A stretch of DNA of 64,000 bases from a virus. The stretch lies in the IMG/VR virus record IMGVR_UViG_3300009285_005282, positions 55,737 to 119,736 of that record. One strand, 5' to 3'. A program made the position numbers and the translations under genes. Of this stretch, positions 10,112 to 53,300 are shown piece after piece. Each line of letters starts with the position of its first letter. Position 1 is the stretch's first letter. The notes under the pieces were generated by a model. That model searched no databases. It was not told the DNA's origin and saw nothing but the letters and a program-made list of their open reading frames with translations.

Positions 10112-12154
10112 CTACTTGGTCTCCGCCCAGCTGTGCCCCACCTTAGGGGTGGCGCGCAGGGGCACTCTTAGCGTGATACCGGGGTGCTCCATGTGCCCCT
10201 GAATGATCGGGCACGCCTCCGCCGCGGACTCCTCAGGAGCCTCGAACACCAGTTCGTCATGTACCTGCAGTAGCATGCGCACCCCGAGTGTGCGAAGTCT
10301 GGAGTCACGACGGCATCGGTTCATTGCCAGCCGGACAATATCCGCTGCCGTGCCTTGAATCCAGAGGTTTGTCGCTGCCCGCTGGGCGTCCCTGGTGAGC
10401 TTGCAGGCGTTACACCAACAGATCTTGGACCGGCGGCCCTGTTGGGCGACAGCCGCTTGATGGGATTGGTAGACGGGCCAGTCCATCGCCTCCAAGAACC
10501 ACCGGCGGTTTCCGAGGTAGGAGGAGGCGTACTTGTGGTCGCTGAGGAACTCGTGTGTCCACTGGATGAAATCTCGTGCTTCCGGAATGGCGGCGAAGAA
10601 CTCCTCGGTCTTCTCCTGTGCCATCCTGGTGGCCTCATCCTGCACGGCCTGGTCTGACCAGTTTGGATACTCTGCACGTACCGCGGCGGGGTAGCCGAGA
10701 TCAATCCCGAGTGTCCGCGCCGCTTTGCCATAAATGAGCCCAAACCCGATTGCCTTCACCGGGTTGCGTAACCCCTTGAGCATTTTCTGGTGATCAGTTG
10801 GGTTCTTGGCGTTTTTGGCCTCGATGAGCTCTTCGTAGGAGTAGCCGTAGACCTTCGCTGCGTTAGCGGTGTGTAAGTCCTTTCCCGCAATGGCGGCCTC
10901 GACCAGGCTCTTGGCGTTGGAAAAGTGCGCCAAGATGTACAGCTCCAACTGGTCGTAGTCAGCTCCTATGAGCACCGTTCCCGGTGGAGCAACGAAAGCC
11001 CGTCGAATGTCCAGCAGCGCGGCGGTGCCACTCCTCAGCTGATTTTGTAAATTGGGCTCGGATGACGACAATCTTCCAGTGTCGGCTACGTGCTGGTTGA
11101 ACGTAGTATGCACCCGCCCGTGGTCGTCCACCCAGGACAGGATACCGTCGATGTAGGTGCCCACCAGCTTGGTGAGCGACCGGTACTCCTTGATGAGCCT
11201 GGGTACCTCGTTTCCCTCCTCGGCCAGGACGTCCAGGACATCTGCATCGGTAGAGGGCCGCGGCGCGCTCGTGGTGCCACCGGGGGTGTTCTTGACAACT
11301 GGCAGCCCCAGGTCCTCGAACAGCAGCTTGGCCAGCTGCGGGCCGCTGTTCAGGTTCACGAAGTAGCCGGCCGTCTGGTTGATCGAACGTTCGATTTCGG
11401 TCTGTCGTTGCTGAATTCGGGGCTTAGCTTGCTGCAGGTAGTTGACATCTAGTTGGATACCCGCCCGTTCCATCTCGAACAGGGTCCTGGTTGTGGGCAC
11501 CTCGTAGAGCATGAACAGATCAAACAATGTACCGTTGCCCGTTCGGTCAGGAATTTGTTGTAGTTTCTCAGCCAGCCTGTGGAACAGCCGCAGGACCCCG
11601 TAGGCGTCAAAGCTGGCGTAGTCCACCACGCGGTCGTACTCGCGCTCAAACGCCTCCAACTCGATCTCGTACAAGGTCTTCTTCGGCGGGCGCTTCCGGT
11701 GCCCTTTGGCGTTGGCGGGGTAGAACGTATCACCAAAGGGCATCATGATCTCCCCGAACTCACGGTAGTAGGCGTCCTTGAGACCGTGTGGCTGCGCCGG
11801 GTTCAGCAGACGGTCCATGGTCAGCGTGCAGTACATGTCCCCCTGGAGGTGCACGCCACTGTTGGCCAACATGTTAGCATCATACTTGATCTGGCTCCCC
11901 ACCCATGTCTTGGTGGGGTCCTCCAACACGTTCTTGAATCTGTGGAGCCGGTCCCGCTCCAGAAAGAACCGGTTGTCCCCGGTGGACACCGACCAGAACA
12001 CCACGAAGTCCCGTTGGATGTTCAGGCCGGTGGTCTCCGTGTCGACGGCGATCAAGTCCGTGTCGTAGAGCAGCTCTTCGAGCTGTTGTTCCTGCTCGGC
12101 CGTCCGCACGTGGACTGCCACCGGCCGGTCGATGGACCATTCTACAAGTTTCAT
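10112..12154 (-). CDS. polA: family A DNA polymerase with 3'-5' exonuclease
   Basis: A 680-residue replicative polymerase, ATG at 12154 with GGAGGG upstream. The exonuclease domain shows LIAVDTETTGL (Exo I, ~residue 34) and YASFDAYGVLRLFHRL (Exo III). Polymerase motif A is IGADYDQLELYILAHF (~393), where the family's usual DYSQIELR is changed to DYDQLELY. Motif B is AIGFGLIYGKAARTL (~466) and motif C is QVHDELVFE (~630). No 5'-3' exonuclease domain is present, as in other phage PolA enzymes. A Cys pair (CWCNACKL) lies between motifs B and C. It copies the phage genome together with the primase, helicase and binding protein encoded upstream. Confidence 0.95.
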   Translation of the reverse strand: MKLVEWSIDRPVAVHVRTAEQEQQLEELLYDTDLIAVDTETTGLNIQRDFVVFWSVSTGDNRFFLERDRLHRFKNVLEDPTKTWVGSQIKYDANMLANSGVHLQGDMYCTLTMDRLLNPAQPHGLKDAYYREFGEIMMPFGDTFYPANAKGHRKRPPKKTLYEIELEAFEREYDRVVDYASFDAYGVLRLFHRLAEKLQQIPDRTGNGTLFDLFMLYEVPTTRTLFEMERAGIQLDVNYLQQAKPRIQQRQTEIERSINQTAGYFVNLNSGPQLAKLLFEDLGLPVVKNTPGGTTSAPRPSTDADVLDVLAEEGNEVPRLIKEYRSLTKLVGTYIDGILSWVDDHGRVHTTFNQHVADTGRLSSSEPNLQNQLRSGTAALLDIRRAFVAPPGTVLIGADYDQLELYILAHFSNAKSLVEAAIAGKDLHTANAAKVYGYSYEELIEAKNAKNPTDHQKMLKGLRNPVKAIGFGLIYGKAARTLGIDLGYPAAVRAEYPNWSDQAVQDEATRMAQEKTEEFFAAIPEARDFIQWTHEFLSDHKYASSYLGNRRWFLEAMDWPVYQSHQAAVAQQGRRSKICWCNACKLTRDAQRAATNLWIQGTAADIVRLAMNRCRRDSRLRTLGVRMLLQVHDELVFEAPEESAAEACPIIQGHMEHPGITLRVPLRATPKVGHSWAETK

Positions 12155-24018: not shown

Positions 24019-25878
24019 GTGTTCGGGTCAACCCCAGCGCCAACGCCGACAACGACGAGTGCCCGTCTCGAAGGGCGTATCCGCGGTTCCCTCACGGGTG
24101 TGCGGTACCCCGACCCGTTCTTCGACCTGGCGCACACCTACCTGCCAACCTCGATCCTGGCGTTGTTTCGTTGGTGCAGGTACTACTACCTCACCTCCCC
24201 GCTCATCGCCGCGGCGGTGGACAAGCTCGCTGAGTACCCCATTACCGCGTTGGAGTTCACCGGTAGCAGCACGGAGGTGCACCGGCTGTGGGAGGCGTAC
24301 TTCGAGGACGACCTGCACCTTCGGGAGACGTTGGTCGATATCGGCGTGTTCTACAACTGCTATGGCAACACCATCGGCTCCTTGCACTTTCCAGCCACTA
24401 AGTGGTTGGTGTGTGAGAACTGCCACCACGAGGAACCAGCAACCGCAGCCAAGTACGACTACCGGGGCTGCAAGTTCCATCTGAAGTGCGCGCAGTGCGG
24501 GCACAACGGTCCCGCCGAGGTGCGTGAACGCGCGGTCAAGACCACCAAGGGAGCGCGACTGCTGCTGTGGAACCCGGAGGACATGGAGGTCCGCTACAAC
24601 GAGTTCACGGGTCACTCCACCTACTACTACCGTATCCCGGCCTACCTGCGCACCGCTGTGCGGCTCGGACGGCGGGACATCGTGGACCACTCCCCCCAGG
24701 TGTTCCTGGATGCAGTGCGGGAGGAGAAGGCGGTGGTGCTCAACCCGGAGAACGTGGTGCATCTCCGTCGTCCCTCGATCATGACCGGGCAGTTGAACCG
24801 CGGGTTGGGCATTCCGCTGGTGCTCCCGGTGCTCAAGAATAACTTCTACCTCCAGATTATGCGCAAGGCGCAGGAAGCTGTGCTTGCCGAGCGGTTGGTG
24901 CCCCTCAACATCCTGTTTCCAACCCAGTCCGCGCCGGGCGTGAACCCCTACGAGCTCATGGACCTGAGCCGTTGGCGGGACCAGGTCAACGAGGAAGTCA
25001 ACCACTGGCGCCGTGATCCTAATTACATACCAGTATTACCACTACCAGTTGGCCACCAAATGATCGGCGGGGATGGCCGGGCGCTACTGCTCTACAACGA
25101 GATGCGCTCCGAAGCGGAGACCATCTTGGTGGGAATGGGCATCCCGCCAGAGCTCGTTTTTGGGGGGTTGTCCTGGAGTGCTTCGAACGTCAGCCTGCGG
25201 ATGCTGGAGAACCGATTTCTGCGGTACATCGCCGGGCTGGAGCAGCTACTCAACAGTTTCGTCATCCCCCGTACCGCCGCCCACATGGGCTGGCCCGCGG
25301 TACGGGCGCGGTTCCGACCGTTCAAGATGGCTGACGATCTGCAGCGGTCGGCGTTCCTGTTCCAGCTCAACCAAGCCAAGCTGGTGAGTGACACCACCAT
25401 GCGGCGGGAGACCAACCTCGATCCGGACACCGAGGACGAGCGGCTCAAGAAGGAGGTCAAGTCCAGACTGCACGGGGTGGAAGAACAGCAGATGGCCGAG
25501 GCGCGTATCTCTGGGCAAGTTGGGGTGCTCACCGCCAAGTACCAGGCAAAGGCCCAACAGGTCATGGCGGAGGAGCAACGTCAGATGCAGTCGGGCACCT
25601 ACGGCGCTGCTCCAGGAGAGGAGGGGGCTGGGATGGGACAGGAGGCGGTGGCCCCCGTCGCTGCTCCGGCGGGCCCAGTGCCGCAGATCCTACAGCGGCT
25701 ACAGGGGCTGTCCCCGGAAGCGCAGCAGCAGGTGTTGCAACGGATAGGTCAACAAAACCCCGAGCTGGCCAGCAGCCTGGCGCAGCAGCTTCAACCGGCC
25801 TCCACACCTGCCAGTGACAGCGCGGGCGCTCCACTTCCGGAGCAGCTCCCGCCGAGACGGCAAGCGCAGCTCATCTGA
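24019..25878 (+). CDS. portal protein
   Basis: A 619-residue protein, GTG at 24019. The N-terminal region RYPDPFFDLAHTYLPTSI and the block SPLIAAAVDKLAEYPIT match the start of large-phage portal proteins. LPVGHQMIGGDGRALLL and LVGMGIPPELVFGG are the strongest portal motifs (~residues 345-390). A zinc-finger-like insertion (CENCHHEE and CAQCGH) lies at ~residues 134-160. The C-terminal ~120 residues are Gln-rich and disordered. The portal forms the dodecameric DNA-entry ring and binds terminase and scaffold. Residues ~333-347 are encoded by conspicuously AT-rich codons. Confidence 0.85.
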   Translation: MFGSTPAPTPTTTSARLEGRIRGSLTGVRYPDPFFDLAHTYLPTSILALFRWCRYYYLTSPLIAAAVDKLAEYPITALEFTGSSTEVHRLWEAYFEDDLHLRETLVDIGVFYNCYGNTIGSLHFPATKWLVCENCHHEEPATAAKYDYRGCKFHLKCAQCGHNGPAEVRERAVKTTKGARLLLWNPEDMEVRYNEFTGHSTYYYRIPAYLRTAVRLGRRDIVDHSPQVFLDAVREEKAVVLNPENVVHLRRPSIMTGQLNRGLGIPLVLPVLKNNFYLQIMRKAQEAVLAERLVPLNILFPTQSAPGVNPYELMDLSRWRDQVNEEVNHWRRDPNYIPVLPLPVGHQMIGGDGRALLLYNEMRSEAETILVGMGIPPELVFGGLSWSASNVSLRMLENRFLRYIAGLEQLLNSFVIPRTAAHMGWPAVRARFRPFKMADDLQRSAFLFQLNQAKLVSDTTMRRETNLDPDTEDERLKKEVKSRLHGVEEQQMAEARISGQVGVLTAKYQAKAQQVMAEEQRQMQSGTYGAAPGEEGAGMGQEAVAPVAAPAGPVPQILQRLQGLSPEAQQQVLQRIGQQNPELASSLAQQLQPASTPASDSAGAPLPEQLPPRRQAQLI

Positions 25879-26253: not shown

Positions 26254-26301
26254 ATGAGCTACGGAATCCACGATCACGAGGTGTGCAATGGCGCGGCTTG
26301 A
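26254..26301 (+). CDS. possible 15-residue leader peptide overlapping the RNA polymerase start
   Basis: An ATG at 26254, preceded by GGAGACGGTC, opens a 15-codon frame (MSYGIHDHEVCNGAA) that ends 14 bp inside the polymerase coding sequence in another frame. The polymerase ATG itself has only a weak GAGG before it, so reading of the leader could deliver ribosomes to that start. This is a suggestion from layout only. Confidence 0.3.
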   Translation: MSYGIHDHEVCNGAA

Positions 26302-29300
26302 CCCTAAGGAGAGCTACGAGGCGCTCAAGGATGGGGTGAAGGAGGCTATCTCCAAGACGTTCCCGCACGTGGGGAAGGTCAACACGTTGGAGTTGGAGGG
26401 CATCGACATCCCCGACGAGCTTTCCAGCAGCGACTACGCGGCGCAGAAGCAGGCCAAGCTCAACGAGCGCACCTTCGGTATCCCGGTTCAGGCCACGATG
26501 GTGCTCCGGGAGAACGCTACCGGCAAAGTGCTCGACCGGTCCGTGGTCAAGATCGCCACGTTGCCGAAGATCACCGACCGCTACTCGTACATCACCGCGG
26601 GTACGGAGTACCAGGTGGACAACCAGTGGCGGTTGCGCCCCGGGGTGTACACCAAGGTCAAGCAGAACGGTGACCTGGACTCCTTCTTCAACATCAAGGG
26701 GCGCCCGCTGCACGTCGGGTTCGACCCCAAGACCAGAAAGTTCGATTTTCAGATCGGCGGTGCCGCTCCGCCGCTGTACCCGCTCATGAAAGCGCTTGGT
26801 GTGAGCGACGACACTTTGGAGCGGCAGTGGGGCACGGACATCCTGGCCGCCAACCGAGTGGACACGCGGGGCAAGCCCCACAACCTGCAACGAACGGTTA
26901 TCGACATCGCGCAACGGCTCGATCCTCGGGCGGAGGTTGGGTCCTACGAGCAGGCGGCCTCGGTCATTCGAGCCAACCTAGAAAGCTCGGCGCTGCACCC
27001 GGAGGTCACCCAGCGGACGTTGGGGAAGTCCATCGACCGTATCACCCCCGAGGCGATGCTGCTCTCCACCGGACGGCTGTTGGGGATCGCGAAGGGGAAG
27101 GAGCGGGAGGACGTCCGTGACTCTCAGTTGTTCAAGGACCTGCACAGCACGGAGGACTTCGTCAAAGAGCGCATCACGGGACACGCCAGTGTTATCGCAC
27201 GGCGGGTGGGGAATAACCTGGACCGTAAGGGAAAGATCCGGGAGATCGTCGTCCCGGACGTCTATGACCGCCCCATCCGCGAGTTCTTCGGCAAGGTGTC
27301 GCTGGCCAACTCGGCCGCGCAAACCAACCCGTTACGAATGATCGGCGGGCAGATGCGCACCACCATCGCTGGCGAGGGTGGGGTGGCCGACGCCAACCGC
27401 ATCACCGAAGACGCCAAGTTGGTGGACCCTAGCCACTTCGGAGTGCTGGACCCGCTGCACACGCCGGAAAGTTCAGCCACTGGTGTGTCCTTACAGCTCG
27501 CGCTTGGCGCCCGCAAGCAGGGTAACCGCGTGGTCGTCCCTCTGATCGACGTCAAGGATGGAAAAACCAAGCTGGTGGACACCTCCGTGATGTACGACTC
27601 GACCGTCGCGTTACCGGACTCGGTCAAGAAGCAGGGCGACAAGTTCGTCCCCGTATCCGGGTCCAAGGTCGTGGCGAGTGTGCCCGGCAACGCCATGCTC
27701 CCGGTAGCGATGAAGGACGTGGACTACATCGTTCCGCGCAGCGGGCAGATGTTCTCGATGGCAACCAACCTGGTGCCCTTCATCAACAGCGACTCCCCGA
27801 ACCGGGCGACGATGGCTGGACGCCACATGGAGCAGGCCATCCCGGTGGTGAACAGTGAGCCCCCGCTGGTGCAAAGTATGTTGGGTTCGGTCTCCATGGA
27901 CACGGTCATCGGCCGCTTTGCCTCCACACGGGCGCCATTGGACGGGAAGGTCACGAAGATCACTGCGGATCACATCACCGTGGCCGACGCGGACGGAGTG
28001 GAGAAGCATATCCCCGTCTACAGTCACTTCCCGCTCAACGACAAGAAGGGCTATATCCACAGCACCCCGGTGGTCAAGGTCGGGGACACCGTGAAAAGCG
28101 GTCAGCTCCTGGCGGACAGCAACTTCACGAAGGGCGGCGTGTACGCACCAGGTACGAATCTTAGAACCGCGTATATGACGTGGGCCGGAAGGAATTTTGA
28201 GGATGGAGTAGTTCTTAGCGAAACAGCCGCCCAGAAGCTCGCCAGCGCGCACATGTACAAGAAGGGGCTGGCGACGCGAGACCTGGAGCTCCCTGGCAAG
28301 AAGAAGTATCACGCCTACTACCCGTTGCAGAAGGAGCAGCTGGAAAAGTTGGATGACACCGGCGTGGTCCGGGTCGGGCAGCGGGTCAAGCCCGGCGACA
28401 CCCTGGTGGCTGCGCTCGCAGAGCGAACGCTTACCACGGAGGAGCAGCGGCTCAAGCTGCTGCACAACAGCCTGGTCAAGCCCAAGAAGGATAAAGCAGT
28501 CACTTGGGACGAGGACTACGAGGGGGAAGTCGTCGAGGTGCATCGCACCCCCAAGCGTGTGCAAGTCCACGTAAAGACTGTGGAACCGATGGAGATAGGG
28601 GACAAGCTCTGCTACGACGAACAGACAGATGTCCTGACCCTAACTGGGTGGAAACCCGTGTCCGAGGTGACATGTGAGGACCTTGTGTGCTGCCTGGTTG
28701 GGGAGGAGGTTGTCTACCAGCACCCCATAGCGGTCTTCTCCTATCCCACCGGCGGCCGAATGTACGTGATCCGTTCCCAGCAGGTAGACCTGTTCGTTAC
28801 CGCGGCGCATCAGATGTACGTGCGCTTACGCGGGGCACAGCAGTATCAGTTACTGCCCGCAGAGTCTCTTTTCGGCAAGAGGGTGCGTTACCGCAAGGAC
28901 GGTGTGTGGCGGGGGGAACACCGGCAGAGCATCACGCTTCCAGCGGTGACGGTTCCGGATAGACGTTACAAACTCGGTCAGCGGGACACCGCGCCTCTAA
29001 CGCTGGACATGAGCACGTACCTGCTATTGCTTGGTGCGTTCTTGGCTGACGGAAACTGCGTGTGCATTCCAAACAGCGGAACCTACGGCATCGAGTTCAG
29101 CAAGGTACGGGAACCTAACCGAGCCGAGCTGCGTGCGGCGTTGACCACGGCGGGGATCTCGTGGACGCCAGCTAGCAACAACACGAAAACGCGGCTTCAT
29201 TCGGTTACGTTGCTTCACCATTTCCAGCAGTTTGGGCATGCTGCGGATAAGTTCATACCGGACGCCATGTTCGGTCTTCCCCCGGAGCAACTCGCGGTGC

Positions 29301-32300
29301 TGTTCCATTGGCTGTTCACGTGGGGGGATGGGCACACCAAAAACGGTAAACCTGTTTCTCAAAGTACGGTATCCCCTCGTTTAGCGGACGGTCTGCAGCG
29401 TTTGGCGCTGCACTTGGGAATGGCCGCGAACGTTACCGTGCTTCACGACGCGGGGTTGACGACCATCAAGGGGCAAGAGTGCCATGTTCAAAAAACCTAC
29501 GATGTGCGCATGGTCACAACGAAGCTGCACCCGCAGGTCAACCACGGGCACGTACATCAACAGCGTGCGCAAACTGAGGAGATCGTTGAGGACTACGACA
29601 AGCCAGTTTACTGCGTTATGGTACCAGAGCACGTCATCTACGTCCGTCGTAACGGCAAGCCGGTGTGGAGCGGGAACAGTGGTCGCCACGGCAACAAGGG
29701 AATCACGACCCAGATTCTCCCAGATGCGGAAATGCCCCATGATAGGGAGGGACGCCCAATGGAGATCCTGCTCAACCCCATCGGGTTGGCCGGCAGGATG
29801 AACGTGGGGCAGATTCTGGAGACCGCGGCGGGAAAGCTCGCCGAGAAGACGGGGCAGACCTACCAGGTCTCCAACTTCACCAGCACGGACAACCTGACCG
29901 ACGTGCAGAACGCGCTCAAGAAGGCCGGCATCTCGGACAAGGAGGACCTGATCGACCCCAATACCGGCAAGGTCATTCCTCAGATCCTGGTGGGGAAGCA
30001 GCAGATCATCAAGCTGGAGCACCAGGTAGACAAGAAGATGCTCTCCCGAAGTCGAGACGCCTACGACCACAACCTCGTACCCCGAGGTGGTGGAAAGCAC
30101 GGCGCGCAGTCCTATGGAGCATTGGGGCTGTACGCGCTGTTGGCGCACGGCTCCCGCGCCAACATCCGAGAAGCGCAGACGTGGCGGTCGGACCGGGCGC
30201 AGGGCGGCGACACCGACGAGCTCTGGGGAGCGCTGCAATCTGGCGAGCTCCTCCCACCCCCGCGAAAGACCTTCGCGTACCGGAAGTTCAACGCTTACCT
30301 GAACACCTTGGGGGTGAACACCGAGAAGGACGGAAACTCGCTGACCCTGGTGCCGATGACCGACAAGCAGGTTCTGGAGATGTCCAACGGCGAGCTCACC
30401 GACGCGGGGAGGGTGCTGCGGATGAAGAGCCTAACGCCGGAGCCAGGGGGGCTGTTCGACGAAAAGATCACCGGTGGCTTGTCTGGTCAGAAGTGGGCGC
30501 ACCTCACCCTTACCCACCCAGTCCCCAACCCGTTGTTCGAGAAGGCGGTCATGAGCCTGGCTGGAATCCGCGGTCCGCAGTTCGATTCGCTGATCCAAGG
30601 GCAGAACGGAGTGACCGAGCAGGGAGCGATCGTCGGTCCGGGGGTGCAGGGTGCGCTCTACGGCCCCCAGTCGATCGAACGTTTGCTGTCCAAGGTGAAC
30701 GTGGGCACGGAGTTGGAGCGGGAGACCGCACGACTGCCTCGGCTCAAGGGGCAGCTGCTCAATGAAACGGCGCGCAAGGTAAAGTACCTACGGGCGCTGC
30801 AGAAGGCCAACCTGACTCCGGTCGACGCCTATATGACGAAGCACGTTCCAGTGCTGCCCCCCGCCATGCGCCCGGTGTCGGTGATGGATGACGGGTCGTT
30901 GCAGACGGACGACCTCAACCAGATCTACAAGTCGCTGGCGTTGGTGAACCAGCAAGCTGGCGCCTTTCCCGAGGGGACGCCGTGGTCGCTCAAGGCGCCA
31001 GTCGCGGCGAGCGTGTACGACCACGTGAAGTCCCTAGCCGGTCTCGGGGGCTCGCTCAACCGCAAGCACCCGGGCATCCTGGACATCATCGCTGGGCGTA
31101 ACAGCCCGAAGGAGGGCTACGCGCAAGCGGTGCTCATCAAGCGCAAGCAGGACCTTACCGCACGCAGCACCATCGTTCCCGACCCGGGGCTGGCGTTGGA
31201 TGAGGCGGCGCTGCCCCGCAAGCTCGCCAAGGAGATGTACAAGCCCTTCATCGTGGCGGAGCTGCGGCGGGCGACCGGGCGCAGCCCCTTGGAGGCCAAG
31301 GAGCTGATTGACAAGGATGACCCGCTTGCAGTGAGCGCACTGGACCGGGTGGTACAGCAGCGGCCTGTCCTACTGAAGCGGGACCCCGTGCTGCACAAGT
31401 ACGGTGTGCAGGCGTTCAAGCCGCGACTCACCGACGGGCGAGCAATCCAGATACACCCGCTGGTGTGCAGCTCGTACAACGCTGATTTCGACGGGGACGC
31501 CCAGGTAGGAGCGGTGTTTGCTTTCCTCCCAAATGCGTTATATGATGCAGAATGTGGCTTCTGGTCACAGCGGGAGGTAGGGATGACGGCGCGATTTCAA
31601 GAGACAGTGAGCTATGACACCGAGGGTGGTCATATGGTCATATGTGACCTGAAAGACTTCCCCCACCTGGAAGCGAAGACCACTCGGGGGCATATCGACT
31701 ACCACCCGGTGCCCGTGGGGGTCAAGGTGGTAGCCCTCGACGAACGGGACGGGCCGGTGTTGGCGGAGGTGACCGGCTGGTCACTCCATCGGAAGCGGCG
31801 GGTAGAGATTGTAACATTGGGTAGCGGGCGGCAAATCGTCACCGACGACGACGAGCGTGCCGTGTACGGGGTTGACGCGTCCTCACTGGAATGGTGTCGC
31901 CGTCGCCCTCGGGAAGCGCGGGACCAGTTTGTCCCGGTCGTGGATCAGACACCCGTGTCAGACGTGGTCCAGTGGAAGACCTGGCCAGTAAGATCCAGTA
32001 GTCCTCGGCTGCACGCTCAAGTGCCGGGAAACTTCGACTTTGGCTATTTTCTCGGCGCCATCGTGGGCGACGGGTGGGCAGCCCGCGTAGACGGGGACCC
32101 ACATGACGTGTGCCTGGGTTCCTCGATTGCGGAAGTCAGCAAGCGCTGGACTGACGCGGCGCAGGTGCTGTTTCAAGAGCCAGTGGCCTCGTGCTGGATA
32201 TGGAGAGCACACGGGAAGCTAGGGGCCTCGGAGGGTAGCGGGTCGGTGACAATTTCGTGTCGGGACCTCGCACGCTTTGTGGATGACGTGGTCGGACACG

Positions 32301-35026
32301 GCGCGGAGAACAAGCACCTGCCCCCGTTCTTTCGTACTGCACCTCGGGAGTTTGTGGTTGGCCTGCTGAGCGGCTTGTGGGATACGGACGGGTCAGTGTC
32401 GTTCTCCGAAGCTAAGAACAAGCCGCAGTTCATGTGCAGCTACTCTTCCAACAGCCTACAGCTTGTTCAGGAGATTCAGAGTCTTCTACGGACGTGGGAG
32501 ATTAGCTCGACGGTCACCCCCACGAAAACTCCTAAGGGTACACCCGCGTGGGTGCTCGGCGTGTCCACCGTCGACCTTTTCAAGTCTGATTTGGAGCTAA
32601 GGCTAGCCCACCCCGACAAGGCGACGGTGCTCCGACGGTTCTTTGACGGACCTCTTCCGGACGACCGCATGGCCTACAGCCGCAACCGTTTGGTGCCGCT
32701 CCCCGCCGCCTTAGCCCGAGAGCTGCGAGTGCTGGTGGGGTGCCACGAGCGTACGAGCATGTACAGCACGCTGAGCAAGGCCGTACAACGACAGTACATA
32801 TCCAAAGTCATGGCCGAAGACGTGCTACGGGTGGTGCACAAGTGCTCCCATCCGTTGTTCGAGCGATGGCGACAGGTAGTGCAGTTGAAGGGTGTGCACT
32901 TTGAGAGAGTGGAAAGTGTCGTAACCACAACTGTCGAAGAAGACGGGTACGACCTTACTGTTCCCGGCTACGAGACGTTCATGAACGTCGACGGGGTTGT
33001 ACTGTCCAATACCATGTCCGCCTTCGTCCCTATATCGGCAGAGGCAGTCTCCGAAGCGCGCAACATGTTTCCCTCCTCCAGCCTTCTCAGCCCCTCTACC
33101 GGCAAGCTCGCCTTCGCTCCTTCCCATGAACAGCAGGTGGGGCTGTTCATGGCCAGTCAGGTAAACGCGGGGTCGGTGAAGCACTTCACGGACCGTGCAG
33201 CGCTGGACGTAGCGTTCAATGCGGGGAAGGCCAAGTTGAACGACGTCGTGACCGTCGGGTCCGTGAGAACGACCCTCGGACGGCTACGCATCAACGACCA
33301 CCTCCCAACCTCAATGCAGGGAGGGCGCATCCTGACCGATCTCGGGTATCACCTTACCAACAAGGAACAGTCAGGGCTGTTCGCCGAGCTGGTCAAGACG
33401 GACCCGAAAGGGTACGCCGTGGCGGTCAACAAGCTCAAGGATCTCGGCAACCACGTGGCCTCCACCGAAGGGTTCACTTTTGGGCTGGAGGACATCAAGG
33501 TCCACCGGGGTATTCGAGATCCCATCCTGCACGCCGCAGAACGGCAGACAGCGGGGCTGGACCTGACCAAGCCGAAGGACCTGCAGAAATACGTCGACGT
33601 CTACGGCAAGGCTATGACCCAGCTCGACACCGCATTGTTAGAACAGGCGCGGAGGGGCTCGGGGCAGCTCGACCGGTTGGAGGTCTCAGCGGGTATCAAG
33701 GGCAAGGCGTACCGACAGCTCACTGGAGCGCCAGTGCTGTTCGTGGACGGCAAGGGAGACGTGGTGCCCAACCCAGTCCGCCGTTCCTACTCCGAGGGGC
33801 TGACGACCACCGACTACTGGGCGGCCACCAGCGGCGGGCGGAAGGGCATCATCCAGAAGGTGCAGTCGGTAAGCGAGCCGGGGTACATGACCAAGATGAT
33901 GACCAACTCCACCATCGACCAGATCGTGGACACTGACGACTGCGGGACCGAACGGGGCATTGCCCTTTCGGTGACCGAGCCGGACATCATTGGGCGGTAC
34001 ACCACCGCTCCCATCAACATGGCGCCGGGTAAGTCGCTACCTGCGGGAACGCTGCTCACCCCCGATCTGGTCACGCGCATCCGCAACAACCGGGGCAACG
34101 CCAAGGTCGTCGTGCGCTCTCCGCTACGGTGTAACCACGCCACCGGACTCTGCGCTCGGTGTGCGGGGCTGAACGAACACGGTCAGCCGCACGATCTTGG
34201 CACCAACGTGGGGGTGCTCGCCTCTCAGGCCATAGGTGAGCGCGGCACGCAGCTCGCAATGCGGGCCTTTCACGCAGGTGGAGTCTTCGAGCCCGGCGGT
34301 GCTTCCTCCCTCACCGCGGGGGGTATGGACCGCGCACTTGACCTATTGTACCTCCCGCAGAAGGTCAAGGGCTCAGCCGTACTGGCACCTCTTTCAGGCA
34401 CGGTAACTCAGGTACGCAAGGACCCTGCTGGAGGGGTACGGGTTGCGGTCCGTTCCGGCGCGGCGGCAACCGAGGTGTACATCCCGCAAGACCGCGCCCC
34501 CTTGTCGACGCTGCGCGCTGGCGCCACGGTAAAGCGCGGCGACTTGCTCTCCTCCGGACCGGTCAACCCGCACGAGCTTTTACCACTAGCAGGGGTGAAC
34601 CGTACGCAGGGACACTTGGCAGAGGAGCTGCATGACCTGTATGGCAACTACGGCATCCGTCGGAGGCACTCCGAGCTCCTAGTGCGGGCGGTCACAGGGG
34701 TGACCAAGATCGAAGACCCGGGGGACCATCCGGGATTCCTGCGTGGTGACTACGCCAACGTGGCCGCGGTGCAGCAGTGGAACAAGCAGAACAAGACCGG
34801 ACGACCTGTCCAGCACGCGCCGGTGCTGCGTGGCGTCAAGCAGATTCCCTTGGACGTGCAGGAGGACTGGCTTGCACGGTTGAACCACAACCGTCTCCAG
34901 AGTACGCTGGTGGAAGCGGCGCAGCAGGGATGGTCGTCCGATCTGCACGGGACGCACCCCATCCCGGGGATTATTTACGGTGAGGAGTTCGGGAAAGGAA
35001 CTCCGGACAAACCATGGAGGTACTAG
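26288..35026 (+). CDS. fused beta-beta' multisubunit-type RNA polymerase with two inteins
   Basis: A single 2912-residue frame from the ATG at 26288. The first half is beta-like: FGVLDPLHTPESSATGV (~385), the block GTNLRTAYMTWAG with NFEDGVVLSE (~621-645), and GDKL joined after splicing to SGRHGNKG (~774/1131). The second half is beta'-like: YNADFDGD (1730-1737) with the three catalytic Asp, joined after splicing to TMSAFVPISAEA. A Cys set follows (RCNHATGLCARCAG, ~2614), then the trigger-loop region ASQAIGERGTQLAMRAFHAGG split over ~2644-2664. Removal of the inteins (356 and 504 residues) would leave about 2052 residues, shorter than bacterial beta plus beta'. No alpha, omega or sigma gene is recognised here. 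It lies among virion genes, so packaging in the capsid is possible. Fusion of the two subunits in one chain is the main oddity. Confidence 0.92.
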   Translation: MARLDPKESYEALKDGVKEAISKTFPHVGKVNTLELEGIDIPDELSSSDYAAQKQAKLNERTFGIPVQATMVLRENATGKVLDRSVVKIATLPKITDRYSYITAGTEYQVDNQWRLRPGVYTKVKQNGDLDSFFNIKGRPLHVGFDPKTRKFDFQIGGAAPPLYPLMKALGVSDDTLERQWGTDILAANRVDTRGKPHNLQRTVIDIAQRLDPRAEVGSYEQAASVIRANLESSALHPEVTQRTLGKSIDRITPEAMLLSTGRLLGIAKGKEREDVRDSQLFKDLHSTEDFVKERITGHASVIARRVGNNLDRKGKIREIVVPDVYDRPIREFFGKVSLANSAAQTNPLRMIGGQMRTTIAGEGGVADANRITEDAKLVDPSHFGVLDPLHTPESSATGVSLQLALGARKQGNRVVVPLIDVKDGKTKLVDTSVMYDSTVALPDSVKKQGDKFVPVSGSKVVASVPGNAMLPVAMKDVDYIVPRSGQMFSMATNLVPFINSDSPNRATMAGRHMEQAIPVVNSEPPLVQSMLGSVSMDTVIGRFASTRAPLDGKVTKITADHITVADADGVEKHIPVYSHFPLNDKKGYIHSTPVVKVGDTVKSGQLLADSNFTKGGVYAPGTNLRTAYMTWAGRNFEDGVVLSETAAQKLASAHMYKKGLATRDLELPGKKKYHAYYPLQKEQLEKLDDTGVVRVGQRVKPGDTLVAALAERTLTTEEQRLKLLHNSLVKPKKDKAVTWDEDYEGEVVEVHRTPKRVQVHVKTVEPMEIGDKLCYDEQTDVLTLTGWKPVSEVTCEDLVCCLVGEEVVYQHPIAVFSYPTGGRMYVIRSQQVDLFVTAAHQMYVRLRGAQQYQLLPAESLFGKRVRYRKDGVWRGEHRQSITLPAVTVPDRRYKLGQRDTAPLTLDMSTYLLLLGAFLADGNCVCIPNSGTYGIEFSKVREPNRAELRAALTTAGISWTPASNNTKTRLHSVTLLHHFQQFGHAADKFIPDAMFGLPPEQLAVLFHWLFTWGDGHTKNGKPVSQSTVSPRLADGLQRLALHLGMAANVTVLHDAGLTTIKGQECHVQKTYDVRMVTTKLHPQVNHGHVHQQRAQTEEIVEDYDKPVYCVMVPEHVIYVRRNGKPVWSGNSGRHGNKGITTQILPDAEMPHDREGRPMEILLNPIGLAGRMNVGQILETAAGKLAEKTGQTYQVSNFTSTDNLTDVQNALKKAGISDKEDLIDPNTGKVIPQILVGKQQIIKLEHQVDKKMLSRSRDAYDHNLVPRGGGKHGAQSYGALGLYALLAHGSRANIREAQTWRSDRAQGGDTDELWGALQSGELLPPPRKTFAYRKFNAYLNTLGVNTEKDGNSLTLVPMTDKQVLEMSNGELTDAGRVLRMKSLTPEPGGLFDEKITGGLSGQKWAHLTLTHPVPNPLFEKAVMSLAGIRGPQFDSLIQGQNGVTEQGAIVGPGVQGALYGPQSIERLLSKVNVGTELERETARLPRLKGQLLNETARKVKYLRALQKANLTPVDAYMTKHVPVLPPAMRPVSVMDDGSLQTDDLNQIYKSLALVNQQAGAFPEGTPWSLKAPVAASVYDHVKSLAGLGGSLNRKHPGILDIIAGRNSPKEGYAQAVLIKRKQDLTARSTIVPDPGLALDEAALPRKLAKEMYKPFIVAELRRATGRSPLEAKELIDKDDPLAVSALDRVVQQRPVLLKRDPVLHKYGVQAFKPRLTDGRAIQIHPLVCSSYNADFDGDAQVGAVFAFLPNALYDAECGFWSQREVGMTARFQETVSYDTEGGHMVICDLKDFPHLEAKTTRGHIDYHPVPVGVKVVALDERDGPVLAEVTGWSLHRKRRVEIVTLGSGRQIVTDDDERAVYGVDASSLEWCRRRPREARDQFVPVVDQTPVSDVVQWKTWPVRSSSPRLHAQVPGNFDFGYFLGAIVGDGWAARVDGDPHDVCLGSSIAEVSKRWTDAAQVLFQEPVASCWIWRAHGKLGASEGSGSVTISCRDLARFVDDVVGHGAENKHLPPFFRTAPREFVVGLLSGLWDTDGSVSFSEAKNKPQFMCSYSSNSLQLVQEIQSLLRTWEISSTVTPTKTPKGTPAWVLGVSTVDLFKSDLELRLAHPDKATVLRRFFDGPLPDDRMAYSRNRLVPLPAALARELRVLVGCHERTSMYSTLSKAVQRQYISKVMAEDVLRVVHKCSHPLFERWRQVVQLKGVHFERVESVVTTTVEEDGYDLTVPGYETFMNVDGVVLSNTMSAFVPISAEAVSEARNMFPSSSLLSPSTGKLAFAPSHEQQVGLFMASQVNAGSVKHFTDRAALDVAFNAGKAKLNDVVTVGSVRTTLGRLRINDHLPTSMQGGRILTDLGYHLTNKEQSGLFAELVKTDPKGYAVAVNKLKDLGNHVASTEGFTFGLEDIKVHRGIRDPILHAAERQTAGLDLTKPKDLQKYVDVYGKAMTQLDTALLEQARRGSGQLDRLEVSAGIKGKAYRQLTGAPVLFVDGKGDVVPNPVRRSYSEGLTTTDYWAATSGGRKGIIQKVQSVSEPGYMTKMMTNSTIDQIVDTDDCGTERGIALSVTEPDIIGRYTTAPINMAPGKSLPAGTLLTPDLVTRIRNNRGNAKVVVRSPLRCNHATGLCARCAGLNEHGQPHDLGTNVGVLASQAIGERGTQLAMRAFHAGGVFEPGGASSLTAGGMDRALDLLYLPQKVKGSAVLAPLSGTVTQVRKDPAGGVRVAVRSGAAATEVYIPQDRAPLSTLRAGATVKRGDLLSSGPVNPHELLPLAGVNRTQGHLAEELHDLYGNYGIRRRHSELLVRAVTGVTKIEDPGDHPGFLRGDYANVAAVQQWNKQNKTGRPVQHAPVLRGVKQIPLDVQEDWLARLNHNRLQSTLVEAAQQGWSSDLHGTHPIPGIIYGEEFGKGTPDKPWRY
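28610..29677 (+). other. intein 1 in RNA polymerase, at the GDK-GRHGNKG motif of the beta half
   Basis: A 356-residue in-frame insertion (protein residues 775-1130). It starts with Cys (CYDEQTDVLTLTGWKPVSEV, block A), has DLFVTAAHQMYV (block B with T-x-x-H), two LAGLIDADG-type motifs (LLGAFLADGN and LFTWGDGH) and ends PVYCVMVPEHVIYV then VWSGN. The next residue is Ser. The penultimate residue is Gly instead of the usual His. Excision joins GDKL to SGRHGNKG, rebuilding a catalytic beta motif. The second endonuclease motif is divergent, so homing activity is uncertain. Confidence 0.9.
31499..33010 (+). other. intein 2 in RNA polymerase, directly after NADFDGD
   Basis: A 504-residue insertion (protein residues 1738-2241) between NADFDGD and TMSAFVPIS. 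It has LAGLIDADG-type motifs FLGAIVGDGW and LLSGLWDTDGS. A C-terminal block GYDLTVPGYETFMNVDGVV ends LSN and is followed by Thr. The N-terminal boundary forced by the alignment gives Ala as residue one (AQVGAVFAFLPNALYDAECG), not Cys or Ser, and the block B-like segment reads IVTDDDERAVYG with Asp where His is expected. The first ~65 residues (to DLKDFPHLEAKT) look like an extra segment. The splicing route is therefore unusual or the intein is impaired. Confidence 0.8.
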
Positions 35027-41990: not shown

Positions 41991-44900
41991 ATGTCCACGC
42001 AGGACCTAGAACAGTACCAACGCGCCATCAGCGCCCTTCACTCCCAGGAGCTCGACCAGACGCTGGAAGACCAGATCGACGCCGAGATGGCTCGGTTGAA
42101 CGAAGAGGACTTCAGCGACGCCGCGATGGAGGAGGCGGTCTTTCCGCAGCTTGTCTCAGCTCGTGCAGAGGCGGAACAGGTTCACGTGCTCCCCTCGGAG
42201 TTTACAGAGTTCGCTCAGCGCATCCCGGTTGGCGGAGAGATCACCAGGTTCAGCTTCGAGGGGAGGCGTTACCTCAAGCAGCCGTACGATACCAGCGCGA
42301 ATCGTATCCTACTAAAATTTTCTCGTCAAAGTGAGAAAAGTCTAGTAGAGCACTCCATGGTCCTTCTTGCTGACGGCAGCGAGACGCCAATCTCGGAGGT
42401 GCGGGTTGGCGACTGGGTGGTGACCATGCTCCCCGACGGAGCACACACCAGCGTCAGCCGAGTGACGTGGAAGTCCGAACGTTACCGGAAACCCTGTGTG
42501 CGTATCCGTACCCAGCGATGCCTGTCCGCCGACGCGGCGGTGACGCACCCCTTTCGCCGATGGGGGCGCTGGACACCCGCGGGGGAGCTCAAGATTGGGG
42601 ATCGTGTTGCCACGGTGCGCCGTGCTGGTCTTTTCACGTCCGAAGCACCAGCACTAGCTGACAACCACATCAAGTTCGTTGCGTACATGATCGGGGATGG
42701 TTGCTGCGGCTGCTCGAACAATTTTTCCTTTACCCAGCAACCTGGTTTGGTGCTGGACGACTTCCTCACCATTGCGCACCAAGAGCAGTGGCCAGTCCGA
42801 ATAGCCGATAAGAGCGGGACACGCGCCAAGCAGGTACACGTTGGCAAGATTACAACCGCACGCACATGGCTGAAGGAGGGGGGCTTGTGGTTGTGCCGGT
42901 CTGCCGATAAGGCTCTTCCGGCGTGGGTGTGGGACCTGCCCCGAACGCAGGCCGCGCTCTTTCTGAATCGGCTATGGTCCACAGACGGGAGCGTTCTTCT
43001 GCACGGTCACCAGTATGAAATTGTCTACTCCTCCATTTCTCGCACGTTGGTCAGGGGGGTGCAGCGTCTGCTGTGGAAGTTTGGCATCCCGTCACGGATA
43101 CGCGAGCTACACCCACAAGTGTACCGAGGGTCGAATAAATGTGCGTACATTCTTGCAGTACAAACACAACCGGGGATAGTGCAGTTTCTCACCGAGGTGG
43201 GGGCACTTGGTAAGTCGGAAGATATTCCACTTCCCTCGATGGCACCAAACAACAACCAAGACACGTTCCCGGTGGAGATCACACAGGACCTACACGCTGT
43301 CAACGCCAGTGGTGGCAGCGGGGGCCGCGGACGCAACGCCACGTACTCGTTGAGCTCGGCGGGTTTGACCGCGACACCAAGTTACCCACCGTCACGTAGG
43401 CGGTTGCAGGAGTATGTTGATTTCTTTCGTGGTCACCCGCGTTACGACCAGAACCTGGTGGACCAGCTTGCCGCGCATCTTGACACGGACCTGTACTGGG
43501 ATCGGGTTATTGGCGTGGAGGACATTGGGGAGCAGTGGTGTTACGACATCGCGATTGAAGAGGATGAGAGCTTTGTCACGGACGGGCTGGTAACACACAA
43601 TTCAACCCTACTAGGTAACAAATTACTGGCTTACGCGGCGATCATCCCCGCGTTCGCCGGGCTGTACGTTTCCTCCTCGGCCACCCAAGCGCAGGTGTTC
43701 TCGGTTGACCGGTTGAAGGACCCCATCGAGCTGTCGCCCGAGCTTGGGCGGTTGGTCCACAACAACCTGTCGCAGAACGTTCTGTTCAAGCAGTTCCGCA
43801 ACCGTTCCCAGATCCGTATCCGGTACGCTTTCCTACATGCCGACCGCACCCGCGGTATCCGGGCGGACGCGGTGACGGTTGACGAGATCCAGGACATCCT
43901 TTTCCACAACATCCCCGTTATCGAGCAGTGCGCCAGCCACTCCGAACTGAAACTGTTTTGCTACAGCGGCACCCCTAAGAGCCTGGACAACACCATCGAA
44001 GTGTACTGGGCCAACCACTCCACTCAGAACGAGTGGGCAGTGCCCTGTGAACGTCACGGCGTCCCTGGGAGACCGAGCTCATGGCACTGGAACATCCTGG
44101 GCAGGGCTAACGTTGGCAGGACCGGACCTATCTGCGCCAAGTGCGGTGCGCCGATTGACCCCATGCACCCCCGGGCACAGTGGGTCAGCCTGCAACCACG
44201 GACGGACGTCAATCAGGACCGGGTGACATTCGAGGGCTACCACGTCAGTCAGCTCATGGTGCCGTGGGTGGTTGCCAACGCCGCGACCTGGCATGAGTCG
44301 ATCATCTTTCCGTTGGAGACCTATGAAGTTGCTCGGGTCAACAACGAGGTGTTCGGGCTGTCCTACGACTCAGGCACACGCCCCGTCACCCGTAAGCACT
44401 TGGAAGCGTGCTGCCGCGACGAGATCAGCATGGACCGCGTGCGGGAGCTCGCGCAGGAGGCGCAGCAGTACGGTGGGGTCGCGGCGGGTATCGACTGGGG
44501 TGGGGGCGGTGACCAGGGGGCTTCGTACACCGTGCTCTCGCTGGGCGGGTACTTGGGGCATGAGTTTCAGATCTTCTTTCTACATCGGTTTATCGGTGAG
44601 GACCTGGACCCCCATCGGCAGCTGCTCAAGATCGCCCAGCTGCTCAACGATGTGCAGTTCCGTATCTGCGGCTGCGACTACGGCGGGGGCTTTCACCCCA
44701 ACGCGTGGCTAGAACGTAACTTTCCCCGCAAGGTGCTGCGGTACCAGTACGCGGGCAACCCCAAGGCGAAGGTCAAGTGGGAACCCGCGCTGGGTAGGTT
44801 CATCCTGCACCGCACCGAGGTGATGAGCGATGTGTTCAACGCGCTGCGCAGCCGCCGGATCTGGTTGCCCCGAGTTGCGGAGTGCCGCTCCCCGTACTTG

Positions 44901-46357: not shown

Positions 46358-46375
46358 CTCGACCTTCCTCCTCCC

Positions 46376-46409
46376 GGTCTAACAACGGCCGGCTGGATCT
46401 TACAACCAA
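46376..46409 (-). promoter_or_regulatory. duplicated upstream element of pentapeptide gene A
   Basis: A 34-bp segment matches 47411-47444 at 32 of 34 positions. On the leftward strand it holds the -10-like TTGTAAGATC, then CCAGCCGGCCGTTG, a GC palindrome candidate for an operator. Relative to the copy upstream of gene B (TTATAAGGTC) the -10 here is weaker, so gene A may be read mainly by run-through or expressed at a lower level. Confidence 0.5.
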
Positions 46410-46421
46410 CATTGGCAATTC

Positions 46422-50322: not shown

Positions 50323-53300
50323 TCGTCAAGCAATGCCAGTTCGCGGGGCGGGATGACACTGGGGAGCATATCCACCTTCTTCACCCCGGGTATGACAATT
50401 TCGAGCTCATGAAAACTGCCTCCGAGGAGGTCTCCCCACCGCAGCTCGAACGGGTGCGGGCGTTGATGCGCGATCTACCTCGGGAGACTGGGCGACTGTA
50501 CGCGCTGATCAGCGCCTTGGGAGCTTCCGAGTACTGGGGCTCGAATTCAAACGCTGATGACTTCGACACGGAGGCATTGGTGCGTGTACCGCCCGGTTGG
50601 TGGGAGCTACCCTACGAACAGCAGGTGCAGCTTGGAAAGAGGTGGGAGTGGGGATTCCCGACCTTTTACAACGCACATCTTTTCGCACACCACTGCTTTG
50701 TTGGGGGCACGCCAATCGTTATGGGGGACCGCACGCGCATCCCTATTGACCGGGTTCGTGCCGGTGACCTTGTGGCTACGCGAACAGGTCCCAAGAAGGT
50801 CACCCGCACTACTTCAAGAAAGTACGTCGGTGTTGGCACAGCGCTGACATTACAAGGGGTAGACACCCCGTTAGTTGGGACGCCGGACCACCCTGTTCTG
50901 GTACTGCGCCGTAAACAGGTTCATTGTCGCCACAAGTACAATAAGCTCGCGGCGTCAGAGCACCTAGCGCAGTGTGTGCAGGCACGAGAACCGATAGGTG
51001 CCCCTCAATGGGTGCCATTGGGAGAGGTACAGTTGGGAGATTACCTCCTAACGCCCGGTCCTATAACCGGAATCGAGACGCTTGAGCCTGAGTTTGCAGA
51101 GCTAGTAGGCTGGGTGGCCGCGGACGGGTATCTCGGCAAGAGGGGAACTATTCAATTTTCGTTTTCTTCAACGGGGGAAAAGCTAACATTGGTTGAACAG
51201 TGCCTTCGACGGAACAAATTACACGTAGGTGTGACCCCCCGTCTGCAGTACGGCGTGACGATGCTCAGCGCGTGCAGCGCAGCGCTCTCAAAACGCGTGC
51301 GTTGCTACGTAGTTGGGACAACTTCCGAGAAGCGACTAACCGCTGAAGTTCTCAAGTGGGACGTCGAAGCAAGACTGCAGTTGATTGGCGCCTATAGTGA
51401 CGGAGACGGATGTGTAACACCGGCAGAACTGCCTAACCGGGGGCAACTTCGGATTCGTAGCGCGTCCTCTCAAATGCTCTTTCTTCTTGCGGACTTAGCC
51501 CGTTCTCTGGGGGTGGCCGGAAGTATAAATTGGGATAGTCCCAGCGGTCCGATGATTTCTCCAACAAACGGGAAACAGTATTGGGGCGGTCCTTCCGGCT
51601 GTCTGGCGGTTGGGGCTAGCGGCGCAGCGGACCTGCTCAAGACCTGTCAGCGACTCAAGCCCGTAGCTCCGTATAGAAATTGCAGAGTTTACCCGTTTGA
51701 AGGCAGCATGTTCCTGGTGAAGGTGGTAGACAGCGATCCGGTTGAATTGAACGAGAACGTGTTCAACCTGGAGGTTGAAGATGAGCATGAGTATATCGCC
51801 AACGAAGTAGTCGTTCATAACTGTAACAAAGATCCCAATCGAGCGTTCGGGGACATTATCCATTCCGATTGGGACTCCCGAATGCACCGGGTGCTGCTCG
51901 TTGGCGCGTTTGACCACGATCGCGCACGTCGGTTTGGCGGACAGTCCGCGGTCGAACGTCTGGAGAACGGGGAATACCTTTCGGTCTCGATGGGTACAAA
52001 AGTTCCTTTCGATCTTTGCAGCTACTGTGTGGACTACGCTCGGGTGCTTCCACTACGCCCCCACCCCCAGCAAATTTTAGCTGAGCATCGCCAGAACCCA
52101 ATACGCGGTCTGAACGTCACCATCCGTGACTACTGCGAACACCTACGTCGGGAGAAGAACCACATTTACCCCAACGGGGTACGGGTCAGTATGCTGAACT
52201 GGCATCCACGTTTCTTCGACCTGTCCTGCGTGTTTGTGGGTGCCGACAAAACCTCGTTCGTCCTGGCCAAACTTGCGCACGAGTGCCCAATCCGTCCGGG
52301 GGTCAAAGAGTGTGGTAACTGCCCCCACGAAGAGTGTGTTCCATCGGCCCACGTACACGAGGTCTGGAGCAGGGACATGCAGAAAACAGCGAGCCCCACT
52401 GTGGACCTGCTAGCGCAGCGCCTTCAAGAGGCACGGGCCAAAACCGCTACCGCCAACAAGTCGGCGTTCGACAAGCAGTCGGAGATCTACAAGGACGTTC
52501 CTCCCAACGTGGGTCAGGTGCTGGCGCCGGTCACGGACGCCGAGCCCGACCTTCCAGAGGAGGTTGTGCGGGAGATGGCCCAGGACCCGGAGAACACACT
52601 GGCCTCCGGGCTGTCGATGGGGGTCATCGCCAAACCTCACGAGTTCCAACGGGTGATGCTCCACTCTACCAGGCGCGGTGACCTGGCTGAGGACTTGGAG
52701 CAACGCGGGTTGACGTTCCGTACCGGCGCACCTCCAGAGGGGTTCTGCCTGGGACGGGAGCTCCTCCCGCGCATCCTGGAGCTGCTTCTACCGTTGGTGG
52801 CGGCGCGCAGTATGCTGTCGCGTCCGCTGGCCAAACGAATCATCGCCACCGGCGGGCGAACGGGGGACATGATCCACCTCCACCTACGCGCCGACGCTGA
52901 CACACCGGACGCGGCGTTGGAGATGGCCTTTCAGAAGTGGTTGGGCGCTCGTCGTGAAGCCAACCGTACCCGCACGGCGTTGGAGGACCCGCTCATGGAC
53001 AAGCTGAGCGCAGCGTACTCCGCCTACCGGCGCGACGCGGTTTACGCAGCACCGGAGCTGCTGCGTCGAGGACTGTTGGAGCACACCAAGCTAGCGGAAG
53101 CGCTGTGTGATAGCGACCTTTACACCCCCGGGCTTGCCAAGACGGCGGGGGACGTGCTTGAATTAGTTGGAATGGCGTCCGTCGCGTACCTCAACGGAGC
53201 ATATTTGAAGGAACCTGCTTCGCAGTATGTGGCGACGCACTGTAACCTGTCCGGCCTGGAAAAGGCAGCCGGACTAGCACGGCTGAGTGGGGTCGCGTAG
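50319..53300 (+). CDS. prohead protease (with intein) fused to long C-terminal region
   Basis: A 993-residue frame; the ATG at 50319 overlaps the previous stop (ATGA). The N-terminal extein ends FYNAHLFAHH. After intein removal it continues CNKDPNRAFGDIIHSDWDS, the His-His-x-N-K-D-P pattern of large-phage prohead core proteases, with EYLSVSMGTKVPFDLC carrying the probable catalytic Ser. Cys-rich ECGNCPHEEC lies further on. The C-terminal ~350 residues are helical with many Lys-x-Ala motifs (QKTAS, AKTAT, EKAAG) and may be scaffold-like. The protease would mature the capsid and process motif-bearing proteins. About 617 residues remain after splicing. Confidence 0.8.
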   Translation: MIVKQCQFAGRDDTGEHIHLLHPGYDNFELMKTASEEVSPPQLERVRALMRDLPRETGRLYALISALGASEYWGSNSNADDFDTEALVRVPPGWWELPYEQQVQLGKRWEWGFPTFYNAHLFAHHCFVGGTPIVMGDRTRIPIDRVRAGDLVATRTGPKKVTRTTSRKYVGVGTALTLQGVDTPLVGTPDHPVLVLRRKQVHCRHKYNKLAASEHLAQCVQAREPIGAPQWVPLGEVQLGDYLLTPGPITGIETLEPEFAELVGWVAADGYLGKRGTIQFSFSSTGEKLTLVEQCLRRNKLHVGVTPRLQYGVTMLSACSAALSKRVRCYVVGTTSEKRLTAEVLKWDVEARLQLIGAYSDGDGCVTPAELPNRGQLRIRSASSQMLFLLADLARSLGVAGSINWDSPSGPMISPTNGKQYWGGPSGCLAVGASGAADLLKTCQRLKPVAPYRNCRVYPFEGSMFLVKVVDSDPVELNENVFNLEVEDEHEYIANEVVVHNCNKDPNRAFGDIIHSDWDSRMHRVLLVGAFDHDRARRFGGQSAVERLENGEYLSVSMGTKVPFDLCSYCVDYARVLPLRPHPQQILAEHRQNPIRGLNVTIRDYCEHLRREKNHIYPNGVRVSMLNWHPRFFDLSCVFVGADKTSFVLAKLAHECPIRPGVKECGNCPHEECVPSAHVHEVWSRDMQKTASPTVDLLAQRLQEARAKTATANKSAFDKQSEIYKDVPPNVGQVLAPVTDAEPDLPEEVVREMAQDPENTLASGLSMGVIAKPHEFQRVMLHSTRRGDLAEDLEQRGLTFRTGAPPEGFCLGRELLPRILELLLPLVAARSMLSRPLAKRIIATGGRTGDMIHLHLRADADTPDAALEMAFQKWLGARREANRTRTALEDPLMDKLSAAYSAYRRDAVYAAPELLRRGLLEHTKLAEALCDSDLYTPGLAKTAGDVLELVGMASVAYLNGAYLKEPASQYVATHCNLSGLEKAAGLARLSGVA
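50694..51821 (+). other. intein in the prohead protease, beside the active-site His
   Basis: A 376-residue insertion (protein residues 126-501). It begins CFVGGTPIVMGDRTRIPIDR (block A), has LVGTPDHPVLVL (block B, T-x-x-H), LAGLIDADG motifs LVGWVAADGYL and LIGAYSDGDGC, and ends NVFNLEVEDEHEYI then VVVHN followed by Cys. All splicing residues look intact. Excision joins AHLFAHH to CNKDPNRAFG. Until splicing the protease active site is split, which would prevent premature cleavage of capsid precursors. Confidence 0.93.

Follow-up and report, generated by a model that had tools for sequence, protein, structure and literature searches.

The gene for a fused beta-beta' RNA polymerase on a viral contig raises the question why a stretch of 81 bp over its catalytic NFEDG motif is written in a codon style that differs from the sequence on either side. 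The window analysed here is a stretch of DNA of 64,000 nucleotides that represents bases 55737-119736 of a 119,736-base IMG/VR virus record, i.e. of a metagenomic contig of unknown completeness. The RNA polymerase gene (26288..35026, + strand) comprises beta and beta' in one reading frame of 2912 aa, with matches to the Pfam entries RNA_pol_Rpb2_6, Rpb1_5 and Rpb1_2, and contains two inteins. An earlier note, made from the letters of the DNA, had described a switch to AT-rich codons over a fully conserved protein motif and had suggested either the scar of a lost intein or recoding that protects the site from homing cleavage.

Codon usage and amino acid changes in the beta patch

An unbiased maximal-segment scan that was blind to the earlier finding placed the edges of the anomaly at 28145..28225 (+ strand), corresponding to residues 620-646 of beta, APGTNLRTAYMTWAGRNFEDGVVLSET. 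This segment obtained a score of 15.1 and ranked first in the curated genes. It consists of 27 codons with a GC3 of 0.37, compared with 0.84 for the whole beta region of the window phage, and across it GC-ending codons give way to AAT, CTT, AGA, TAT, GGA, AGG, TTT, GAT, GTA, GTT, GAA and ACA; the codon switch described in the earlier note was therefore confirmed by the scan. When 25-codon windows were compared with the window's own codon usage, the patch yielded the highest z value (6.26) among 14,675 extein windows, and a genome-wide maximum of this size was reached in one of 1000 synonymous simulations based on the codon frequencies of the phage itself (P ~0.001). The change of sequence style is local and sharply bounded, and the patch carries both synonymous and non-synonymous changes. 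These data indicate that the observation is real and unusual.

It is very improbable that the patch represents an extreme of ordinary codon variation or a metagenomic chimera in which two phages were joined at a conserved motif. The metagenomic origin of the contig and an overdispersed codon usage (sd 1.24 rather than 1) would suit such an artefact, but the simulated P value, the lack of anything near it in 43 relatives and the presence of several patches in one genome argue against it. Moreover, both flanks are typical of the phage, the reading frame is intact, and a chimera would require exact shared k-mers on either side of a stretch with differing codons.

The same stretch was examined in 43 dereplicated relatives with 32-63% identity, in which z did not exceed 1.4 and averaged -0.59, at the 2nd percentile along the gene, so that their codons at this point rank with the most typical. 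The maximum z of any beta window was 4.2 or less in every one of these relatives, whereas it was 6.83 in the window phage. Accordingly, the patch codons are private to the window phage. Rewriting should stand out better in a GC-rich recipient of this kind than in relatives richer in AT, but GC-rich relatives likewise lacked the patch. Since the codons are private, a conserved DNA or RNA element overlapping the gene is unlikely, and we give very little credence to an RNA structure, an internal promoter or programmed slow translation as the cause. The + strand folds somewhat better than shuffled sequences (z -2.1), which would favor such an element; the strongest stem (GGGCGGC/GCCGCCC), however, lies outside the patch in the ordinary flanks, and no promoter or terminator patterns were found when these were looked for.

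The protein motif, which the earlier note had taken to be fully conserved, is in fact broken by the substitutions P631T, K633A and Y635R. The non-synonymous part of the patch comprises the codons of T631-W-A633-G-R635 (28178..28192, + strand), for which the relatives have P-x-K-G-Y, so that their near-invariant motif M-P-[WYF]-[KR]-G-Y-N-F-E-D-G reads M-T-W-A-G-R-N-F-E-D-G in the window phage. Among 109 distinct sequences, residue 631 is P in 100 and never T, residue 633 is K or R in 101 and never A, and residue 635 is Y, L or F in 102 and R in two. Cellular beta subunits with solved structures show M-P-W-x-G-x-N-Y-E-D at this motif in the two alignments that were inspected. Three amino acid changes within five residues (631-635) are notable. 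An excess of amino acid change in the patch over the rest of beta was considered as well and was not significant, with changes at two of 18 positions that are invariant in the four closest relatives, compared with 49 of 348 overall. At residue 631, which is Pro in nearly all relatives, the beta sequence of contig L059 has a Ser (GYMSWKG). A single contig, L052, stops exactly before the patch.

A donor of the patch was not found by codon matching across all relatives, although the collections searched may lack close relatives: the best cases were AT-rich and unspecific, and in no relative did the agreement with the patch codons surpass what a mere preference for AT-rich codons predicts. A search of IMG/VR with a degenerate pattern for MTWAGRNFEDG gave no match. 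The shorter pattern GRNFEDG detected two relatives of the beta subunit (L072 and L075), which share R635 only and have overall identities of 37% and 32%.

Inteins of the RNA polymerase gene and the NFEDG site

The two resident inteins of the gene are located at 28610..29677 (+ strand; GDKL/C...SGN/SGRHGNKG, with slashes at the junctions) and at 31499..33010 (+ strand; NADFDGD/A...LSN/T), the latter with a LAGLIDADG_3 domain. The flanks of both are free of codon anomaly, with z values of 0.36 and 0.41. The beta' intein has an unusual N-terminal residue, Ala, directly after NADFDGD; its homologues at the allelic site start with Gln in L006, with Ser in L009, L010 and L059 and with Cys in L046 (after NADFDGN), and in some relatives the inteins at this site end in WD/T instead of HN/T. 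Homing elements of beta occur elsewhere in the family at GDKL/S (window phage and L025), PES/S (L059) and GIVT/C (L010). In Vibrio phage D181 (L067, 4504-5425), beta is split at residue 501/502 by about 930 bp of inserted DNA that include a homing endonuclease gene, a point at which Vibrio phage D69, 97-98% identical on both sides, is uninterrupted. The contigs L009, L010 and L059 are rich in inteins, with at least three in portal, beta and beta', and allied contigs add sites in TerL and a DnaB-like gene.

With respect to the NFEDG motif, 133 distinct sequences were compiled from the first 65 relatives, the best 80 of 291 and the best 80 of 217 IMG/VR matches, and 18 loci from bacterial genomes. 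None of them contained an intein, an intron or a homing endonuclease gene between residues 612 and 655, although the lower-ranking IMG/VR matches beyond these best 80 of each set could include a relative with an intein. The junction patterns HN/TWxGxNFEDG and N/(S or T)xxGxN(F or Y)EDG were without match in IMG/VR. In the window phage itself, the patch is devoid of an in-frame insert with splicing motifs; the open reading frame is continuous and shows no insert when aligned to all relatives. The earlier note had named two observations that would speak against its proposal, namely no intein at this site in relatives and wide conservation of the same codons; the former was seen in the sequences searched, whereas the codons turned out to be private.

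These results bear on the strict form of the lost-intein proposal, according to which an intein resided in the motif, for instance at AYM/TW, and was precisely removed, leaving co-converted extein flanks behind. Residues T623, T631, S644 and T646 could each have served as the +1 residue, and T631 would supply a nucleophile exactly where the relatives have a near-invariant Pro; co-conversion of P to S is documented at the MCM-d site (PMC10643990), and the patches look like the extein sequence on either side of the TerL intein described below. Speculatively, P631T would have replaced a non-permissive Pro by a permissive +1 Thr, which would fit a former junction AYM/TW. In addition to the lack of any intein in the 133 sequences, however, precise loss would exchange the flanks for those of an intein-free allele, and most intein flanks in the family are not anomalous. 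This strict form of the proposal is therefore quite unlikely for NFEDG.

Further patches and their relation to homing sites

Several further patches were detected in the window; ranked by score, the beta segment is followed by the end of a helicase gene, the portal patch, the TerL intein junction and the PolA patch. The portal patch (25012..25050, + strand; scored segment 25015-25050) consists of 12 codons with a GC3 of 0.08, and the codon at 25012 corresponds to the +1 position of a portal intein (WR/C...HN/S) carried by the relative L009. The 12 codons upstream of this insertion point have a z of -0.75 and the 12 codons downstream a z of 5.71. The PolA patch over TGRLSSSEPNLQN (11044..11078, - strand) contains the site at which the relative L131 has a mini-intein in this motif, TGRLS/C...HN/C. 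This mini-intein, found in the PolA locus of genome G032 at the TGRLS/S motif, has about 155 aa and is too short for an endonuclease domain.

The TerL patch flanks a resident intein on both sides: its upstream part, the scored segment RILLKFSRQSEK (42300..42338, + strand), ends at the intein (42339..43601, + strand; SEK/S...THN/S, LAGLIDADG_3), which has an allelic counterpart in L083 and L081, and its downstream part, also scored, covers STLLGNKL (43602..43625, + strand). The flanks reach a z of 4.4. The TerL intein itself, at a GC3 of 0.67, is not rich in AT, whereas its 15 upstream extein codons have a GC3 of 0.27, which is a poor fit to joint import of both from one AT-rich donor. A fourth resident intein (50694..51821, + strand; HH/C...VVHN/CNKDP) has moderately anomalous flanks (z 2.6). 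The earlier remark that inteins of the window phage are flanked by the same codon style consequently holds for the TerL intein and moderately for the intein at 50.7 kb, but not for the two RNA polymerase inteins. The second-strongest anomaly in the window covers the 13 codons at the end of an SF2 helicase gene, KLRRHLRKRGMTA (18717-18751, - strand), and is not located at a conserved motif. Elsewhere in the window, two adjacent genes at 45392-47387 (- strand) encode pentapeptide-repeat-like proteins of 321 aa each with A-D/N-L-X-X repeats and probably represent a duplication.

As a held-out test, the scan was extended to the remaining half of the record, on which neither the earlier note nor the preceding analysis had drawn. 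Its top segment (record positions 28469-28576, score 14.0) covers the Walker A motif GLGSGKT of a helicase, QSGLVVAHGLGSGKTLASIAAADELAPGRAVALVPA. The question whether relatives carry an intein at this site was posed together with the search, before its result had been seen. The relative L366 (about 2103-3501) contains an intein exactly at the patch, GLGSGK/CVRGDT...LHN/T, while the other 33 of 34 distinct sequences are uninterrupted. The patch has a z of 6.0, compared with a mean of 0.18 at the same site in 36 relatives.

Four of the genome's six top segments include or adjoin an intein site, which is occupied in TerL and empty here in portal, PolA and the helicase (occupied in L009, L131 and L366, respectively). 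An overlap of four out of six had a P of 0.0001 when any position in the eight genes was allowed. Inteins also inhabit conserved motifs, and the coincidence is therefore much weaker when conservation is matched (P 0.026, and 0.096 without the resident TerL intein). An unbiased list of homing sites in the window's genes comprised 15 sites, four occupied and 11 occupied only in relatives, at which the mean z was 0.97 compared with -0.06 at conservation-matched positions (P 0.008); the 11 empty sites alone showed a weak enrichment when conservation was matched (P 0.06).

Codon anomaly was absent from the intein sites of the relatives, where the mean z was 0.07 at 29 occupied and -0.14 at 481 empty sites. 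The notion that intein flanks are always anomalous was accordingly ruled out by these sites, and the two inteins of the window phage's RNA polymerase gene contradict it as well. Since the relatives' intein sites are ordinary, the patches are no general consequence of inteins in this family, and the effect is specific to the window phage. A codon scan of the relatives' genome pieces, intended as a null, was swamped by wrongly started open reading frames and was left out of the significance estimates. In genome G026, an otherwise ordinary one, a gene of 339 aa (L190, 4720-5739) holds an anomalous segment of 107 codons; the deduced protein reads like a ThyX-type thymidylate synthase, and the segment is possibly a recent import.

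A link of the patches with homing sites is likely but unproven, because inteins and patches may favor conserved motifs for separate reasons. Ordinary homeologous recombination, in which a short tract from a diverged, AT-richer phage would have entered with its ends in well-aligning conserved motifs and without any role of homing, ranks next after the reading preferred below and has an appreciable, albeit distinctly smaller, chance of being correct. All strong interior patches indeed lie in conserved motifs (segment conservation 0.74-0.89), and the patch GC3 of 0.37 would suit relatives with a GC3 near 0.45-0.5. On the other hand, recombination is left without a donor, as codon matching yielded none, and T631 and A633 are seen in no relative. 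Furthermore, the portal patch starts beside a known insertion point, the intein question at the helicase preceded the discovery of the intein, and in the relatives conserved motifs are not enriched for codon anomaly, the correlation between anomaly and conservation being -0.26.

A possible homing scar and comparison with known systems

The best single reading of the beta patch, to which we assign a probability of roughly 0.45, is that of a homing scar, in which part of a highly conserved motif became rewritten because an endonuclease had its target there. A homing endonuclease from a co-infecting phage bearing an intein or intron would have cut the empty site in the catalytic motif; a repair that copied a diverged template, or one prone to errors, would then have put differently coded sequence in place of about 80 bp while the protein stayed functional; and the rewritten site would have escaped recognition and remained empty. 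A homing scar does not require that an intein ever resided at NFEDG. Of the two proposals in the earlier note, the common element, a connection with homing in general, gains support from the patches elsewhere that lie on intein sites; these do not establish a past intein at NFEDG, where none was seen in the sequences compiled.

Selected recoding, in which mostly synonymous point mutations would have accumulated under selection because they abolish recognition by a homing endonuclease or, for example, by a CRISPR effector, is an unlikely cause, and the positions of the other patches do not separate it from a repair scar. Nearly all changeable codons of the patch are non-preferred, as if the low GC3 resulted from saturating change of codons that started at 0.84, and since these starting codons end in G or C, any recoding would look AT-rich; the non-synonymous changes, moreover, fall within the same few codons. 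The recognition site of a homing endonuclease nevertheless spans roughly 14-40 bp, which is far exceeded by the 81 bp of the patch, and a few changes would suffice to destroy it; moreover, an endonuclease for the NFEDG site is not known.

The homing scar can be extended to all patches, although the odds are against this generalization: codon-anomalous patches might be fossil target sites of survived endonuclease attack, and 'ghost' intein sites might be predictable from a single genome. If so, phage RNA polymerases are predicted to have an as yet undiscovered intein site in their catalytic NFEDG motif. The codon usage of one genome would then display past homing attacks, including those at sites now without an element, and both the cycle of intein gain and loss in phages and the escape of recipients would become testable. 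The helicase, at which the patch was found first and the relative's intein afterwards, would be a first example of such a prediction, and homing would be seen to mark even the most constrained residues of a polymerase.

The inteins RPB2-a, RPB2-b, RPB2-c, RPA2-a, RPC2-a and RPO-a were described in the second-largest RNA polymerase subunit by Goodwin et al. 2006 (PMC1635734); in this subunit, which corresponds to the phage beta, multiple insertion sites fall within active-site motifs, the most conserved ones. Unlike these sites, the phage NFEDG motif was without an intein in every sequence found. The fused beta-beta' RNA polymerases of Salmonella phage Arash, Vibrio phages D69 and D181 and many IMG/VR contigs are encoded by homologous genes that lack the codon patch, and the endonuclease insertion of D181 is located at residue 501/502 rather than at NFEDG.

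Sequence change beside homing sites has also been observed in yeast mitochondria, where Repar and Warnecke 2017 reported raised SNP density and polymorphism at the borders of mobile introns (PMC5378118). As in the patches, the excess of change is confined to a few tens of bases beside homing sites. The authors considered co-conversion from outside or mutagenic repair as causes and, as here, detected no donor. The yeast signal, however, is a population-level SNP density beside resident introns, whereas the phage carries fixed, dense patches at mostly empty sites.

The patches likewise resemble the co-conversion of exteins and exons that is seen when inteins and group I introns home, in which short flanks are rewritten around the insertion point of a highly conserved target. 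At the MCM-d inteins of haloarchaea, the +1 proline is co-converted to serine and becomes the nucleophile on arrival of the intein (PMC10643990). In contrast to the co-conversion cases, the strongest patch described here is free of an intein and three further patches lie in alleles that are empty in the window phage; moreover, the patches of the window phage were detected by codon usage, whereas the co-conversion cases were recognized by comparison of strains.
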